Below, piece after piece: positions 12,344-19,651 of a DNA stretch of 64,000 nt (positions are counted from its first letter, which is position 1; each line of letters begins with the position of its first letter). The translations under genes and the position numbers were made by a program. Under the pieces are notes generated by a model. It saw only the letters and a program-made list of their open reading frames with translations, ran no database searches and was not told the DNA's origin. Origin of the DNA: Thiothrix unzii (lineage in GTDB: Bacteria > Pseudomonadota > Gammaproteobacteria > Thiotrichales > Thiotrichaceae); the NCBI RefSeq assembly GCF_017901175.1, contig NZ_CP072793.1:310001-374000 (forward strand), given 5' to 3'.

Positions 12344-13873
12344 TTAATCCTGTGGTTTATCAAGCCGACAATCCGCACGCGGGCGTTGCGCAGGGTCGTT
12401 GATAAAGCCGATAAATAAATCACTGGCGCACGGTTTGTTGTCGAGCACGCTGTGCGCAATTCCGCTGAACCGGAACAAATAGGTGGAGTCCTCAGCAAAT
12501 TGTTTGGTGGCAGCTTTGGCTGCCCATGCCGCCGGGGTAATCGGGTCGTCTTCGCCCGATAAAATCAAACTGGGGACGGTAAGCCGCTCTGCGCTGACTT
12601 GTAAACCGGGGTGTTGGCGGTTTTTATTCCACACGCTGCACATATCGTAATCGGCAGGCAGGTAGTAACGCAGGTGTGGGTAAGTGTCGACTTTCGCCAC
12701 CATGCTATCGCGCGAAATTGCCGGATTATCGCTGCATTCCACTGCCCAGAAAACCGGCTCACGAAATGCCGCGTCAAACTGGTGATAGAGGTAATTGTTG
12801 ATATATTCCCGCGCTAAGTCGATGCGGCCTTCCTGCAAATGGCGGATAAAACTCGGTAAGTATTTCAATTGATGGCTGTTGTATTGCGCGTCGAACAGCA
12901 TTGCCAGCAAAATTTCATCATTGAGTTGCAGCTCTTGCAGATTCCCCAATTGCAAATCCGCGACCGGAATCCGCAACGGTGTGGTGCGTAGTTGTGCCAT
13001 CAGCGCGTGGTAGCGGGCTTCAATATCACCGTTTTCCAGCAGGCAGCGTTCATCCGCCGTGCAATACTGAAACAGACGTTGCAGGCTGTTATTTAACAAT
13101 TCCGGCCAATCGCGTAACAGGTGTTCACCCAGCGGGTAAAGCGAGTCGAGCGTTAAACTGCGCACTCGCTCTGGAAAGCGACGCTGGATTTCGAGTGCTA
13201 AGCGCGTGCCGTAGGAAACGCCGAGTAAATTGCTTTGCTGATAATCCAGCAGGGTCAGGAGATCGTTGACATCTTGCGCACTGAGATGCGTGCCCAGTTC
13301 ATTTAATGGTTGCTTGGCTTGAGTTAACTGTTCTTGGCATTGTTGACTGACTTCGAGGTAACGTCGCGCGTTGTCGGTTGGCGTGCCGGGGTTGGATAAA
13401 ACACTCGCACTTAAATCGCGGTACGCTTGGCAACCTAACGCAGGTTCGCTCATGCCAGTGCCGCGCTGGTCAAACAAGATAAGATCGCGTTTCATCGCGT
13501 ATTTTTGCTCAAACCACGCCAGCCAATGATTTTCCACCCCGTCTTTATCCAGCCATGCGGCAGAACCGGGGCCACCGGCTAAATACACCAAAGGATCAGG
13601 CTGATGCCCCAATCCGGCATGACGCATGATGACAACAGGGAGGCGAAACGCAGAAGGCGCACCGGTTTGTGGTGGGGCGGTGTGTAACCAGCCGCAAGAT
13701 ACTGACAAATTCGTGGTATTGGTAAACCAGCATTCGCTCGGCACGAATTGCGCACCGTTAGGCAATGTTTTAGCAACTGTCGCTTTGATCATAGTGGTTT
13801 GATGTAACGGAACCAAGCCCAGCCCGACCACTATGACTAAGCCACCCAACAGGAGCCAGATTATTTTTTGCAT
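12344..13873 (-). CDS. Alpha/beta hydrolase, TAP-like (peptidase S33 type)
   Basis: A membrane-anchored or exported serine hydrolase of about 509 residues. An N-terminal hydrophobic helix (IIWLLLGGLVIVVGLGLVPL) precedes the hydrolase fold. The oxyanion region reads YLAGGPGSAAW and the nucleophile elbow is GVSYGTRLAL. An Asp region (ILSGEDDPITP) and a late His (GIAHSVLDNKPCA) complete the triad in the TAP C-terminal domain. Members cleave short peptides or esters; the substrate here is unknown. GTG 13891 would add six residues; ATG 13873 starts just before the anchor and is preferred, though neither has a clear ribosome site. Confidence 0.8.
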   Translation of the reverse strand: MQKIIWLLLGGLVIVVGLGLVPLHQTTMIKATVAKTLPNGAQFVPSECWFTNTTNLSVSCGWLHTAPPQTGAPSAFRLPVVIMRHAGLGHQPDPLVYLAGGPGSAAWLDKDGVENHWLAWFEQKYAMKRDLILFDQRGTGMSEPALGCQAYRDLSASVLSNPGTPTDNARRYLEVSQQCQEQLTQAKQPLNELGTHLSAQDVNDLLTLLDYQQSNLLGVSYGTRLALEIQRRFPERVRSLTLDSLYPLGEHLLRDWPELLNNSLQRLFQYCTADERCLLENGDIEARYHALMAQLRTTPLRIPVADLQLGNLQELQLNDEILLAMLFDAQYNSHQLKYLPSFIRHLQEGRIDLAREYINNYLYHQFDAAFREPVFWAVECSDNPAISRDSMVAKVDTYPHLRYYLPADYDMCSVWNKNRQHPGLQVSAERLTVPSLILSGEDDPITPAAWAAKAATKQFAEDSTYLFRFSGIAHSVLDNKPCASDLFIGFINDPAQRPRADCRLDKPQD

Positions 13874-13980
13874 CGTATTAAGCCAGTCCACCCCAATATG
13901 CTTGGGTTTATTGTGGCTTTAATAAACAAGACACAAGCTTAATTGGCAGTGAATTGGCGGGGATTTTTAAAGGCGTTCCA

Positions 13981-14010
13981 CAAAGAAAAGAGGCGGGAAT
14001 TACCCGCCTC
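13981..14010 (-). terminator. Terminator of the porin-glnK-amtB operon
   Basis: A perfect 8-bp stem GAGGCGGG / CCCGCCTC with a 5-base loop; reading the minus strand it is followed by TTTTCTTTG. It lies 35 bases beyond the amtB stop. Confidence 0.88.
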
Positions 14011-14044
14011 AAGTCGACTCGGAGAAGTCAGTTGCTCATTTCGC

Positions 14045-15424
14045 TTAAGAGTAAGCGCGTTCGCCGTGGGAAACAGTATCCAGACCTTCGCGTTCCTCGT
14101 CTTGAGAAACCCGCAGACCGATGGTCATTTTGAGTAAGGTGAACAATACGAAGCTCACTACACCCGACCAAACGATGGCTACGCCTACGCCCCATAACTG
14201 ATTGATGACTTGCGCACTGCTGTATTCAGCCACTGCACCGGTAGCGTAGTCAAAGATACCTGAGCCGCCCAATGCTGGGTTGACCAGAATACCCGTGCCG
14301 ATTGCACCGATGATACCGCCGATACCGTGTACGCCGAATACGTCGAGGGAATCGTCATAGCCCAGCATATGTTTCAGGCCAGTAACACCCCACAAACATG
14401 CTGCACCTGTTACCAGACCCAATGCGATTGCACCCATCGGGCCTGCAAAACCAGCTGCTGGAGTGATTGCAACCAGACCAGAAACCGCACCGGAAACCGC
14501 ACCCAACAGGGAAGGTTTGCCACGCAATACCCATTCTGCGAACATCCAAGATAATGCAGCGGCTGCGGTAGCAACGATGGTGTTAACCATTGCCAACACT
14601 GCGGTGCCAGTTGCTTCCAAGTTAGAGCCAGCGTTGAAGCCGAACCAGCCAACCCACAGCAATGAACCGCCGATCATGGTCATGACCAAGTTGTGTGGTG
14701 GCATCGGGTCACGACCGTAACCTACGCGCTTGCCGACCACGATTGCGCCTACCAGTGCTGCCATTGCCGCGTTGATGTGTACGACTGTACCACCCGCGAA
14801 GTCCAAAGCACCTTTCGCAAACAAGAAGCCAGCCGGAGCGTCATACGCTGAAGGGCCGCCCCAGAACCACACCATGTGTGCCATTGGCAGGTAAGAGAAG
14901 GTGAACCACAATACAGAGAACACTAACAGAGCAGAGAATTTAATGCGCTCTGCAAAACCACCTACGATCAGGGCAACGGTGATAGCTGCGAAGGTCAATT
15001 GGAATGCCATGAACATCATTTCATGAATAACCACGCCCTTGCTGAAGGTTTCGACAGTAACCGCAGTATCCACACCTTTGAGGAACATTTTGCTCAAACC
15101 GCCGACGAAGCTATTCAAGCTGCCACCATCGGTAAAGGCCAAGCTGTAGCCATAAACGACCCACAGAATCGCAATAACGCAGAAAATAGTGAAAACTTGT
15201 GCCAAAACGGACAACATGTTTTTAGCGCGAACCAAGCCACCGTAGAACAGTGCCAAGCCCGGAATAATCATTAAAATAACCAACAGCGTAGAAAGCATCA
15301 TCCACGCGGTATCGCCTTTATCCGGTACAGGAACTGCTGCCGCTGGATCAGGATCAGCTAAGGCGATGCCAGAAAACCCCAACAGGGCGACCAGCAACAT
15401 CCAACCAAAACGTAAGTTCATCAT
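14045..15424 (-). CDS. amtB: Ammonium transporter AmtB
   Basis: Inner-membrane trimeric channel for ammonium. A cleavable signal peptide (ends near ALAD) is followed by eleven hydrophobic helices. Family landmarks are GDTAWMMLSTLLVILMIIPG at the start of the channel, FAGGTVVHINAAMAALVGA, and the DVFGVHGIGGIIGAIGTGI pore-histidine region. The length of 459 residues is normal with a signal peptide. It lies 9 bases downstream of glnK, the usual pairing: GlnK plugs the channel when nitrogen is plentiful. The whole operon is probably driven by the sigma-54 promoter at 16568-16582. Confidence 0.96.
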   Translation of the reverse strand: MMNLRFGWMLLVALLGFSGIALADPDPAAAVPVPDKGDTAWMMLSTLLVILMIIPGLALFYGGLVRAKNMLSVLAQVFTIFCVIAILWVVYGYSLAFTDGGSLNSFVGGLSKMFLKGVDTAVTVETFSKGVVIHEMMFMAFQLTFAAITVALIVGGFAERIKFSALLVFSVLWFTFSYLPMAHMVWFWGGPSAYDAPAGFLFAKGALDFAGGTVVHINAAMAALVGAIVVGKRVGYGRDPMPPHNLVMTMIGGSLLWVGWFGFNAGSNLEATGTAVLAMVNTIVATAAAALSWMFAEWVLRGKPSLLGAVSGAVSGLVAITPAAGFAGPMGAIALGLVTGAACLWGVTGLKHMLGYDDSLDVFGVHGIGGIIGAIGTGILVNPALGGSGIFDYATGAVAEYSSAQVINQLWGVGVAIVWSGVVSFVLFTLLKMTIGLRVSQDEEREGLDTVSHGERAYS

Positions 15425-15433
15425 AAGTCCCCC

Positions 15434-15778
<345 letters not shown>

Positions 15779-15832
15779 TCACTCCTTGCAATAGAAACCC
15801 CACCCATGACAGGCGGGGCGAACAGGACAGAC

Positions 15833-16516
15833 TTAGAAATCGAAAGATTTAGTCCAAGACAGGGACACCTTGGTATCAGTAACGCCAACGCGACCACTTG
15901 GCTTATCTGCTGCCAACACAAAATCGCCTGCTTTTTTGAATGATTTTGTTAAAGCGATTTGAGTATGCGTGTAATCATCACCCGCAGCATCGTCAAAATC
16001 ATATTTACCTACAGTGCCACCAACGCTGAACCCATTTGCAAGTTCCTTGTTTACACCGATGTGGTAGTACTTGTCGCCTTTACTGAATTCTGCGGTGGTG
16101 TCGTCCTTTGAACTCACAGTATAAGCCACACCAGCTTCAGCAATACCGTAGCTACCTTTCAATGAAACTTCTTCAAAATGCGCATTTCCGGCTGTTGCAG
16201 TTGGATATTGGTAAGTGGTGGCAGCAACGTCATAAGCGAATCCATTAGGAAGTTCTTTCGCGTAGCCTGCGTAAACGTCGACTTCTTCACCAAGACCGTG
16301 ACCACCGAGTCCGCTTGCCCATGTGCCAACATATAAACCATTTTCTGCTTCGTAATCCAATCCACCTGAAAACGCACCACGATCCTGAGATTGTGTTAAC
16401 CCACGCCAGATGTAGTTGCTAGTAGCACCGATGTTAGCAGACGCACCTGCAACAGCTTGTGCGCTGATCAACAAAGAACCCAATAATGTTGCAGTTAACA
16501 ATACGCCGTTTTTCAT
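15833..16516 (-). CDS. TorF-family putative porin
   Basis: An outer-membrane beta-barrel of 227 residues from the TIGR02001 (gcw_chp) family. It has a signal peptide ending around AVAGASA, the family start SANIGATSNYIWRGLTQS, alternating aromatic strands, and a final Phe typical of barrel proteins. It is the first gene behind the sigma-54 promoter and precedes glnK-amtB by 60 bases, so it probably admits a nitrogen source across the outer membrane. That role is inferred from context; family members have little direct functional data. Confidence 0.85.
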   Translation of the reverse strand: MKNGVLLTATLLGSLLISAQAVAGASANIGATSNYIWRGLTQSQDRGAFSGGLDYEAENGLYVGTWASGLGGHGLGEEVDVYAGYAKELPNGFAYDVAATTYQYPTATAGNAHFEEVSLKGSYGIAEAGVAYTVSSKDDTTAEFSKGDKYYHIGVNKELANGFSVGGTVGKYDFDDAAGDDYTHTQIALTKSFKKAGDFVLAADKPSGRVGVTDTKVSLSWTKSFDF

Positions 16517-16567
16517 CTCACTATCTCCTGTTTAAGAAAACCAAAATTGTTTAACGATGATTACAAA

Positions 16568-16582
16568 GCAATTGCCGTGCCA
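16568..16582 (-). promoter_or_regulatory. Sigma-54 promoter of the porin-glnK-amtB operon
   Basis: Read on the minus strand, TGGCACG-GCAA-TTGC followed by T matches the -24/-12 consensus (TGGCACG-N4-TTGCW) at every fixed base. The expected transcription start is near 16556, about 40 bases before the porin ATG, which has its own GGAG ribosome site. Confidence 0.92.
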
Positions 16583-16678
16583 ACCCTGAAAAAATCAATG
16601 AGGACGTGGTAAATACAGACAATGTGGTAAAAACACATCATTTTCGTATCATTACAAGCCCCCTTACGCACACCTAAA

Positions 16679-16695
16679 TGCACGATATAAGTGCA
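16679..16695. promoter_or_regulatory. NtrC-type enhancer dyad
   Basis: TGCAC-N7-GTGCA is a perfect dyad with the half-site and spacing of NtrC sites. It lies about 100 bases upstream of the sigma-54 -24 element, the usual enhancer distance. A single TGCACC half-site follows near 16710. It also lies upstream of the divergent ubiK, but nothing suggests that ubiK needs it. Confidence 0.75.
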
Positions 16696-16791
16696 TTAGC
16701 GTTACCTGATGCACCAATGCAAAGATCAGCCTCTCATTTGTGTGTTGTAATGCTACAATTCGGCTCATCTAACGACACGAGGAGATTCCCC

Positions 16792-17034
16792 ATGCAAAAC
16801 TTTGGCAACCTTGATGATTTAGCAAAAAAACTTTCCGCGCTCCTGCCTGAACCCGTGCGCCACATGCAAGAAGACGTGGAAAAAAATATGCGTGGTTTGC
16901 TCGAAGGCGGTTTGCAAAAAATGAATCTGGTGACACGCGAAGAGTTTGATATTCAATCAGCAGTGTTACTGCGCACTCGCGAAAAGCTCGAAGCGCTGGA
17001 AAAACGATTGGCTGTAATCGAAAACTCACAATAG
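16792..17034 (+). CDS. ubiK: Ubiquinone biosynthesis accessory factor UbiK (BMFP domain)
   Basis: A small coiled-coil protein needed for efficient aerobic ubiquinone synthesis; it binds UbiJ and lipids. It has 80 residues: an N-terminal helix (LDDLAKKLSALLPEPVRHMQEDVEKN), then a C-terminal coiled coil with the family motif VTREEFDIQSAVLLRTREKLEALEKRL. The frame is open from 16678, but ATG 16792 has a GAGGA ribosome site and matches the family start, so the longer reading is rejected. Confidence 0.93.
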   Translation: MQNFGNLDDLAKKLSALLPEPVRHMQEDVEKNMRGLLEGGLQKMNLVTREEFDIQSAVLLRTREKLEALEKRLAVIENSQ

Positions 17035-17053
17035 ATATAAAGATTGGGCAGTA

Positions 17054-17380
17054 TTATTCATGCTGCTCAATCGTTGTGCCACTGTCGCTATCCAACTGCA
17101 CTTGTTCCAGCACACGCCCACGCAAAATCGCCCGTCCGCTCCGGCGTTCCACACCTTGTATGCTGTATTCAAATCCGTAAGTGCGTCGCCACACTAAGTG
17201 CCCAGCATTATTTCGTGCCGGTTTTAGGCTTTCCAGCGAAACCGTTTGATCCAGCAGTTGCACATTGATGGACTGGCAGGCGCGTGTTGCCGCTGCGATG
17301 GCGCGTTCGCGGGCGTTCATTGAGTCGATCCAGAACCACACGCCCGCGCCGAGTATGGCAATTAACAGCAAATTTTCCAT
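17054..17380 (-). CDS. DUF3301 domain-containing protein
   Basis: A 108-residue inner-membrane protein with one N-terminal helix (ENLLLIAILGAGVWFWIDS) and a charged cytoplasmic domain (RERAIAAATRACQSINVQLLDQTV, then WRRTYGFEYSI). This is the DUF3301 pattern, widespread in gammaproteobacteria and without known function. The frame extends upstream to 17509, but that part would run into the divergent proC start; ATG 17380 has an AAGGGT upstream. Divergent from proC, convergent with ubiK. Confidence 0.85.
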   Translation of the reverse strand: MENLLLIAILGAGVWFWIDSMNARERAIAAATRACQSINVQLLDQTVSLESLKPARNNAGHLVWRRTYGFEYSIQGVERRSGRAILRGRVLEQVQLDSDSGTTIEQHE

Positions 17381-17450
17381 TATGACCCTTGGAGGTTGTA
17401 AACTAGCACCCATTATCCTACGAAATTCACTGGACAGGCACAAAACGACT

Positions 17451-18293
17451 ATGGAAACACCAAAATTGGCACAAAAGCCGACCACAATTACGTTCATCGG
17501 TGCGGGCAATATGGCGCGTAGTTTGATTGTTGGGTTGTTGCAAGATCAAGCGAATGTCAGCTTGCGCGTGGCTGACCCTGATCAGCGTCAACTGGATGCG
17601 ATTCGCCAGCACTGGCCTACGGTTTTTACCAGCACCGACAATAGCGAAGCCATGCAGGGCGCAGACGTGGTGGTATTAGCAGTGAAACCGCAGGTGATGG
17701 GGGAGGTTGTAAAAACCTTGGCAGAGCAAGCGCAGCGCAGTCGCCCGTTGATTATTTCTGTCGCGGCGGGGATTCGTGAGCAAGCCCTGAATGCTTGGTT
17801 GGGCGGTAATATGCCGATTGTGCGTTGTATGCCGAATACGCCCGCCTTGGTGCAAGCCGGAGCCACGGGTTTATACGCGAATCCGCAAGTATCTGAATTA
17901 CAACGCAGTACCGCTGAAAGTATTTTACGTGCAGTAGGAATTACCTTGTGGTTTGCGGATGAAGGTAAGCTGGATGCGGTGACGGCAGTTTCAGGCAGTG
18001 GCCCCGCGTACTTTTTCCTCGTGATGGAGGCGATGCAAGCGGCGGCTGAACAGTTGGGTATCCGTGCAGAAGATGCACATTTGCTGGTGGTGCAAACCGC
18101 GTTTGGTGCTGCCAAATTGGCATTGGAAAGCCAAGACCCGCCTGCGGAATTACGCCGCAAAGTGACTTCCAAAGGTGGTACGACTGAAGCCGCGCTGCAC
18201 GTGTTAAACGATGGCGAGTTAACGGCGTTGTTTGGTAAGGCGTTGCAAGCGGCTGAAAAGCGTTCTTGTGAACTAGCAGCGGCGAATAGCTAA
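17451..18293 (+). CDS. proC: Pyrroline-5-carboxylate reductase
   Basis: Last step of proline synthesis: reduces pyrroline-5-carboxylate with NAD(P)H. The Rossmann start is TITFIGAGNMARSLIVGLL. The family signature near the C-terminus (VTSKGGTTEAALHVL) and the VSGSGPAYFFL motif are intact. It has 280 residues. The frame is open from 17265, but ATG 17451 begins the recognisable protein. It leads an operon with yggT and yggU. The PLP-binding yggS gene that often precedes proC is absent here. Confidence 0.95.
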   Translation: METPKLAQKPTTITFIGAGNMARSLIVGLLQDQANVSLRVADPDQRQLDAIRQHWPTVFTSTDNSEAMQGADVVVLAVKPQVMGEVVKTLAEQAQRSRPLIISVAAGIREQALNAWLGGNMPIVRCMPNTPALVQAGATGLYANPQVSELQRSTAESILRAVGITLWFADEGKLDAVTAVSGSGPAYFFLVMEAMQAAAEQLGIRAEDAHLLVVQTAFGAAKLALESQDPPAELRRKVTSKGGTTEAALHVLNDGELTALFGKALQAAEKRSCELAAANS

Positions 18294-19177: not shown

Positions 19178-19651
19178 TTAGAATTCGCGCTTGCGGAAAC
19201 CACCGCGATCGCCGCCGCGATCGCCGCCGCGATCACCACCACGGTCGCCGCCGCGATCACCACCACGGTCGCCGCCACGATCACCACCGCGACCGCCACC
19301 GAAGCCGCCGCCGTCACGACCACCGCCGTAACCGCCGCCGTAACCACCGCCATCATTGCTGCGTGGACGGAAGCCGCCGCGATCACCGCCACCTGTGCGT
19401 GGGCGATCTTCGCGTGGTTTTGCTTCGTTAACTTTAATGTTGCGGCCTTGAACCGCTTTTTCATTCAACCCCTGAATGGCAGCAGCAGCTTCAGCATCAT
19501 TAGGCATTTCGACAAAGCCAAAGCCTTTAGATTGCCCTGTCATTTTATCCTTAACCATGCTAACGCTTGATACTTCGCCATAAGCTGCGAACAGTTCGCG
19601 CATGTCAGTATCGGTGATTTTGTAGGGCAGGTTGCCAACGTAGATATTCAC
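19178..19651 (-). CDS. RNA-binding protein, RRM domain plus RGG-type glycine-rich tail
   Basis: A 157-residue protein. Residues 1-79 form one RRM with RNP2 (NIYVGNLPY) and RNP1 (KGFGFVEM) both intact. The tail from about residue 85 is Gly/Arg/Asp-rich and ends in seven GGDR units. This architecture resembles cyanobacterial and proteobacterial cold-induced Rbp proteins, which bind mRNA. The start appears to be GTG with a weak ribosome site. It is preceded by about 240 bases of non-coding DNA, compatible with a long regulated 5' leader. Confidence 0.9.
   Translation of the reverse strand: MNIYVGNLPYKITDTDMRELFAAYGEVSSVSMVKDKMTGQSKGFGFVEMPNDAEAAAAIQGLNEKAVQGRNIKVNEAKPREDRPRTGGGDRGGFRPRSNDGGGYGGGYGGGRDGGGFGGGRGGDRGGDRGGDRGGDRGGDRGGDRGGDRGGFRKREF
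19205..19288 (-). repeat. Seven tandem 12-bp coding repeats (GGDR units)
   Basis: Seven consecutive 12-base units, near-identical with changes mainly at third codon positions, encode Gly-Gly-Asp-Arg in the tail of the RRM protein. The multiple of three keeps the frame when the copy number changes, so length variation between strains is likely. Confidence 0.9.

Follow-up and report, generated by a model that had tools for sequence, protein, structure and literature searches.

Known operons and the Thiothrix unzii locus

In the plant-associated bacterium Herbaspirillum seropedicae, the nlmA(orf1)-glnK-amtB operon has been reported to be NtrC-dependent, with an amtB::lacZ fusion 21-fold higher under nitrogen limitation, and NlmA was described as a membrane protein of unknown function that is probably periplasmic (PMC3023670). 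Here we analyzed a 64,000-nucleotide (nt) stretch of the Thiothrix unzii genome (contig NZ_CP072793.1, positions 310,001 to 374,000; hereafter the window, with coordinates counted from its first letter), in which a gene for a TorF-family putative porin precedes glnK and amtB on one strand, the gene order of this operon type. A preliminary description of the interval 15833-16695, which extends from the stop codon of the porin gene to the distal edge of an NtrC-type dyad, had placed the genes under nitrogen-regulon control. The likeness to the H. seropedicae operon comprises three genes in the same order, a first gene for a membrane-associated protein, NtrC dependence and induction by nitrogen limitation; the main text of that report does not use the words "porin", "outer membrane" or "sigma" (PMC3023670). 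Given that operon, neither the type nor the way it is controlled is new; the T. unzii locus is best read as joining it, and we add a broader hypothesis on the TorF family.

A second related system is FmdC of Methylophilus, likewise a porin whose gene accompanies those of an uptake system for nitrogen solutes and whose expression ammonia represses (PMC10781810); compared by description only, it appears to belong to another porin family. FmdC is the characterized porin nearest to ExtI (annotated as a phosphate-selective porin), at 19% identity (PMC5877670), and comammox Nitrospira reportedly possess fmdC for use with urea (PMC11064514). The Pfam entry for Gcw_chp, the family of the T. unzii porin, reads protein of unknown function. 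We found no mention of Gcw_chp in the open-licence literature and, among the entries listed there, no link of TorF or Gcw_chp with glnK-amtB, the one listed entry that contains the phrase "TorF family" being a study of gold nanoparticles; the name amtB does not occur in the accessible part of a B. cenocepacia NtrC study (PMC5491218).

Profile scans gave the gene identities and bore out the order porin, glnK, amtB, as first described. The porin gene (15833-16516, minus strand, 227 amino acids) matches TIGR02001, "TorF family putative porin", at 131.9 bits (cut-off 47.15) and PF09694 (Gcw_chp) at 97.7 bits (cut-off 24). It is followed on the same strand by a gene for a P-II signal protein (15434-15772; PF00543, 115.8 bits), whose best NCBIfam model, PRK10665, scores 177.8 bits, slightly below the cut-off of 181, and which we call glnK because it adjoins amtB. 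The ammonium transporter gene amtB (14045-15424, minus strand) matches PF00909 at 398.5 bits and TIGR00836 at 442.1 bits (cut-off 343.3). The T. unzii genome holds one TorF gene and two P-II genes, a single match to NtrC above the cut-off (734.3 against 558.6 bits) and a single match to RpoN (489.7 against 277.35 bits).

Upstream of the porin gene lies a sigma-54 -24/-12 promoter, TGGCACGGCAATTGCT (16567-16582, minus strand), which agrees with all 12 consensus positions and has the -24 GG and -12 GC at the correct spacing. It is the only zero-mismatch match to TGGCACG-N4-TTGCW in the 64 kb, where shuffles gave an expectation of 0.08. The preliminary description had reported this promoter as exact, with an NtrC dyad about 100 bases upstream, and both statements held. 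The dyad TGCAC-N7-GTGCA (16679-16695, minus strand), a putative enhancer, is perfect, has the form recognized by NtrC and is the sole exact match in the window (0.14 expected). Its center stands about 105 nt upstream of the -24 GG, a workable distance. Judged from the promoter position, the transcript would start near 16556, 12 nt past the -12 element and about 130 nt from the dyad center, with a predicted 5' leader of 40 nt (16517-16556, minus strand).

Conservation of the sites and of the glnK linkage

A composite pattern of dyad, 80-110 nt and sigma-54 site, slightly looser than the two exact site patterns, occurs once in the T. unzii genome. Across the genus it gave 12 matches in 11 of 16 genomes, and the reversed control gave none. 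Nine of the 12 lie ahead of porin-glnK-amtB, and the dyad-to-sigma-54 spacing is similar in the genus relatives; one match lies elsewhere, with none of the reference genes matched in its 3.1 kb.

The preliminary description had also proposed a survey of the porin-glnK-amtB linkage, and this survey was positive in a class draw as well as in a second set of mostly Burkholderiales or Betaproteobacteria. The class draw comprised 140 genomes of the same class, drawn evenly and at least 95% complete, with TorF present in 72, T. unzii included. The other 71 carry 88 TorF genes, and in 40 of these 88 glnK lies at most 1.5 kb downstream on the same strand; the TorF-glnK order occurs in 38 of the 71 genomes, two of the 40 genes being second TorF copies in the same operon. 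Five of the 88 are linked to UrtA, one to an amtB-like gene without glnK, and 42 to neither amt nor urt genes. Inspection by eye showed six of the 42 to be linked otherwise: TorF follows glnK-amtB in three (L137, L178, L185), is divergent from glnK in one (L140) and from urtA in another (L166), and precedes a formamidase gene in the last (L180).

A sigma-54 site was called when 10 or more of 12 positions matched, the GG and GC being required, and a dyad when 9 or more of 10 did; both thresholds were chosen after inspection of the window and the order loci. The amt class holds 41 genes (40 with glnK, one with the amtB-like gene only), of which 38 have at least 300 nt upstream. Among these 38, sigma-54 sites occur in 29 and dyads in 23, against 0.5 and 0.48 expected from shuffles that moved two-base blocks, as also in the site-pair and Burkholderiales counts below, and are weaker than true dinucleotide shuffles. 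The three amt-class genes with less than 300 nt upstream, set apart, all have a sigma-54 site. The five urt-linked genes have sigma-54 sites in all cases and a dyad in one, and the remaining genes have them in 12 of 42 and 6 of 42, respectively (0.6 expected for each). A sigma-54 site precedes 32 of the 40 glnK-linked genes, and in 21 of those 32 a dyad lies farther upstream, an arrangement found four times in 640 control shuffles (0.2 expected).

A second set consisted of the best 80 of 565 relatives of one Limnohabitans query, which are its nearest relatives and not an even draw, nearly all of them, by title, Burkholderiales or Betaproteobacteria. In this Burkholderiales set, 73 of the 80 are linked to glnK, with sigma-54 sites in 69 of 77 and dyads in 50 of 77 (1.65 expected for each). 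A phylum draw of 398 genomes contained Gcw_chp in 215, and glnK lies downstream in 13 of its 30 best-scoring TorF loci. Two unusual arrangements were seen. In one locus (L126:5001-6754) a tandem TorF pair precedes glnK-amtB, its upstream copy lacking both sigma-54 site and dyad in the 400 nt scanned; in one phylum-draw locus (L076) the order is glnK-amtB-TorF, with the porin last.

On a tree built by a quick method from 117 rows (87 from the class draw and 30 from the own order, after removal of one short piece), amt labels change 17 times, compared with 39.0 in shuffles, with 42 of 114 inner branches left open. Linkage to amt is therefore clustered, yet often gained or lost. For the tree and the charge comparison below, labels were amended by eye: L137, L178, L185 and L140 were taken as amt, as was L041 at a contig end, and L166 as urt; L055, whose own surroundings were not fetched, was assigned to urt on the basis of its near identity to L057.

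The spacing between dyad and promoter carries a further signal. In the class draw, the distances from dyad center to -24 GG cluster near 84, 93, 103, 114, 125 and 135 nt, about one DNA turn apart. Phasing in this set (n = 21) gave R = 0.66 at a period of 10.5, with a best period of 10.9, and none of 5000 jitter trials was as high. The own-order set, which includes the T. unzii locus, gave R = 0.85 (n = 15; best period 10.6), its members being close relatives. The Burkholderiales set showed no significant 10.5-nt phasing (n = 49, R = 0.23, jitter p 0.067, best period 13.4). Dependence on the face of the helix is established for enhancers of this activator class, and in the class and own-order sets, not in Burkholderiales, we see the phasing as a trace of selection on the site pair.

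These data bear on the idea that the sites are chance matches and the porin gene a passenger. Each site alone is expected about 0.1 times per window, and therefore the single window proves little; conservation across genera far above the shuffled expectation, and phasing in two of the three sets, make this account scarcely credible, and a chance origin of the sites was rejected on their conservation in the class draw, the genus and the Burkholderiales. With conserved sites, conserved gene order, phasing in two sets and both NtrC and RpoN encoded in the genome, the nitrogen-regulon control first proposed is strongly supported, and we regard the NtrC/sigma-54 reading of the operon, on these comparisons, as close to certain.

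The survey also makes TorF a candidate identity for NlmA, and by analogy we infer that NlmA may be a TorF member. In the Oxalobacteraceae, the family of Herbaspirillum, a metagenome-assembled genome of Undibacterium has TorF (TIGR02001, 186.4 bits) directly before glnK. Counting against the identity, the TorF gene of Massilia phyllostachyos (L293), which we take to belong to the same family, has no glnK within 4 kb downstream. Two pattern scans for the nlmA locus with the published glnK primers (PMC3023670) found none, the second in 0 of 399 genomes, and no Herbaspirillum is among the best 80 of the 565 Limnohabitans relatives.

The predicted barrel and its possible solutes

An AlphaFold model built from 43 sequences (the window protein and related loci) is a 12-stranded barrel with a mean predicted local distance difference test (pLDDT) score of 85.9. 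A helix at residues 4-16, of low confidence, occupies the place of a signal peptide, and the C-terminal residue is Phe; the protein is predicted to be an outer-membrane barrel with an export signal. A search for solved relatives by sequence found none at E values up to 1. By fold, the best matches are KdgM (4pr7; Z 17.9 over 166 residues), VhGalP (Z 16.8) and NanC (2wjq; Z 16.6 over 181 residues), the last tied with FapF (Z 16.5) and the COG4313 channel (Z 16.3); intimin, autotransporters, OmpG, Tsx and OMPLA score lower. The T. unzii porin shares the 12-stranded fold of KdgM and NanC but only about 10% identity, and a Pfam scan at E 0.001, against a collection that presumably includes a KdgM model, returned Gcw_chp only. 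KdgM and NanC carry acidic sugars, whereas the lumen of the T. unzii porin is predicted to be acidic itself.

With lumen-facing positions assigned by alternation along the strands, the inner face of the window protein has a net charge of -9, and the mean is -9.7 in 62 amt-labeled proteins, -6.6 in 42 Burkholderiales rows (36 amt-linked, 6 from loci unlinked to glnK), -6.9 in 40 unlinked rows and -5.1 in 15 urt/fmd-labeled rows. The acidic residues E78 (99%), D80 (96%) and E116 (100%) run through all rows. D54 is found in 96% of the amt-labeled and 100% of the Burkholderiales rows, while the urt/fmd group has D in 46% and K in 46%. The assignment of faces is weak for strand 61-69, because its two faces barely differ in hydrophobicity. 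A cation-favoring pore would suit ammonium.

The predicted structure also bears on the suggestion that the barrel takes no part in uptake and, produced in response to nitrogen stress, remodels the envelope or has a structural function. Two genus relatives have no TorF before glnK, as would fit such a protein. Yet the predicted 12-stranded barrel is nearest to known channels, conserved charged residues lie on the presumed lumen side, and TorF genes lie beside three distinct systems for taking up or using nitrogen, so we consider a barrel without an uptake role improbable. That TorF is a channel serving nitrogen acquisition, in contrast, seems to us rather likely.

The three systems emerge from the sister genes. 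In the own order, the analysis covered 13 stretches around TorF genes without glnK, and UrtA lies directly downstream in nine (L062, with a urtA-urtE remnant, L063, L064, L065, L067, L070, L071, L074 and L075). All seven of the nine that were scanned have a sigma-54 site matching at 11 of 12 positions, at -83 to -135, and one has a dyad (9 of 10 positions), far upstream at -334. The class-draw TorF gene ahead of a formamidase gene (L180; formamidase match 769 bits) has a sigma-54 site at 11 of 12 and a dyad at 10 of 10 positions. With urt, formamidase and glnK-amtB loci all represented, genes serving ammonium, urea and formamide, three nitrogen systems in all, therefore sit behind a TorF barrel. 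Sister genes that head urea and formamide loci also mean that the likely substrates are widened.

Several of these loci have features of their own. At L062:5629-6352 only pieces of urtA and urtE stand beside TorF, as if a urea transporter operon had decayed and left its porin gene behind. Within 16 kb, L075 contains TorF-urtABC, urtE, urease genes, a gene that resembles ubiK by its first residues, and then TorF-glnK-amtB. At L064:4076-6449, three genes divergent from the urt-type TorF resemble a polar amino-acid ABC transporter; the binding protein, the only one of the three scanned, matches TIGR01096 barely above the cut-off. In the two genus relatives whose composite site pair stands directly before glnK-amtB (L208 and L214), a TorF gene lies elsewhere, beside urtA (L064) and beside the urt remnant (L062), respectively.

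The sister genes also bear on a rival account of the solute. On this account, the porin is a nitrogen-limitation channel for larger or other solutes, such as urea, short amides, amines or amino acids, and rides with glnK-amtB because they are needed simultaneously. Agreeing with it are the TorF genes at the start of urt loci (5 of 88 in the class draw, and those in 9 of 13 own-order stretches that lack glnK), the one before a formamidase gene, and the Shewanella torF gene, which a published table lists as a trimethylamine N-oxide (TMAO) reductase system outer membrane porin (PMC5955497). The protein concerned, TorF of Shewanella oneidensis (SO4694), is, to judge from the family name, presumably the one after which the NCBI family is called. 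However, linkage to amt is far commoner than to urt (40 compared with 5 of 88), and the predicted lumens of amt-labeled proteins are more acidic than those of urt-labeled ones (medians -10 and -3; n = 62 and 14; Mann-Whitney 2.5e-5, a value that is too small because the rows are related), as fits a cation, with Burkholderiales (-6.6) between. In addition, a profile search of the T. unzii genome found no match to UrtA. We therefore judge a channel mainly for other solutes to be possible, though unlikely.

The explanation that we favor, with moderate confidence, is that porin-glnK-amtB is a nitrogen-limitation operon whose barrel admits ammonium and perhaps other small nitrogen solutes; for ammonium as the main solute of TorF, we put the chances at about even. 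When nitrogen is scarce, phosphorylated NtrC would bind the dyad at 16679-16695 and loop to RNA polymerase-sigma-54 at the -24/-12 element, yielding a single transcript of porin, glnK and amtB. The small 12-stranded outer-membrane barrel, with its acid-rich interior, would then admit ammonium (perhaps with other small nitrogen solutes) to the periplasm, from which AmtB would carry it into the cell, and GlnK would shut AmtB once nitrogen returns; the roles of AmtB and GlnK are established for their families. Graded expression may come from the stem-loop after the porin gene, which would probably raise the porin message over that of glnK-amtB, either by partial termination or by guarding the 3' end. 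The nitrogen-uptake role of the barrel, already suggested in the preliminary description, is what we infer from this arrangement.

A number of findings weigh against this explanation. Ordinary porins pass ammonium, which is small enough, and therefore a dedicated channel needs a reason, for example very low ammonium. TorF is absent from 68 of the 140 class-draw genomes and from 36 of 63 genomes of the own order, and two of the 12 composite matches in the genus lie directly ahead of glnK-amtB with no TorF between; because TorF is missing from many genomes and these two relatives keep promoter-glnK-amtB without it, TorF is dispensable. The 42 class genes linked to neither amt nor urt include 30 with no sigma-54 site at threshold, and the 10.5-nt phasing does not extend to the Burkholderiales. 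An acidic interior is family-wide, the Burkholderiales rows (-6.6) being no more acidic than the unlinked ones (-6.9), and the lumen charges derive from strand alternation, not from coordinates. A literature search found no experiment on T. unzii or on a TorF pore.

We further propose, tentatively and at well below even chances, that TorF is a family of acid-lined outer-membrane channels for nitrogen solutes, in which sigma-54 control ties sub-lineages to different partners (Amt, Urt and Fmd, for ammonium, urea and formamide, respectively), the outer-membrane permeability to ammonium is NtrC-regulated, and substitutions that alter charge, for example K for D54, tune the pore between ammonium and neutral solutes. 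Standing first in the operon with glnK and amtB, downstream of NtrC-type sites, Gcw_chp acquires a concrete role that can be tested, and a neglected question arises: at very low ammonium, is passage across the outer membrane what limits its uptake?

The porin-glnK spacer, the operon end and neighboring features

The spacer between porin and glnK contains a stem-loop (15797-15819, minus strand; 10 pairs, 6 of them G-C) that is terminator-like or 3'-protecting. Folded with the porin stop codon, the window spacer reaches -22 kcal/mol (z -2.64), and 2 of 200 shuffles were as low. In 54 spacers of 35-120 nt from the order, phylum and class sets, the mean z is -2.24, with 28 of the 54 under -2; 12 of 67 spacers were shorter than 35 nt and left unfolded, including all four from the family of the Limnohabitans query. 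Controls, drawn only from 30 linked order and phylum loci, gave mean z values of -0.19 for porin leaders (30), -0.09 for porin coding sequence (60) and 0.27 for glnK coding sequence (30). Among 11 genus spacers, both sides changed with pairing kept in five of nine pairs. The stem-loop is likely to leave more porin than glnK-amtB message, and protection of the transcript would fit equally well.

After amtB, a terminator-like hairpin (13990-14010, minus strand; 8 pairs, 7 of them G-C) is followed by TTTTCTTT, and probably closes the three-gene operon. Terminator-like sites showed no excess across the region (5 found, 4.1 in shuffles), and sigma-70 promoters were no more frequent there than in shuffled sequence (3 against 4.4). 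Because 13500-17500 gave no Rfam match at the gathering score, we rejected the idea that the leader or spacer holds a known RNA element.

Divergent from the operon and outside it is a ubiK-like gene (16792-17034, plus strand), which begins with ATG, has AGGAGA ahead of the start, and matches PF04380 at 93.1 bits (cut-off 37.2) and the UbiK NCBIfam model at 93.5 bits, slightly below its cut-off of 100. Farther along the window, 19178-19651 encodes a small protein with a long RGGD-repeat tail, which we take to resemble RNA-binding proteins of the RRM type.
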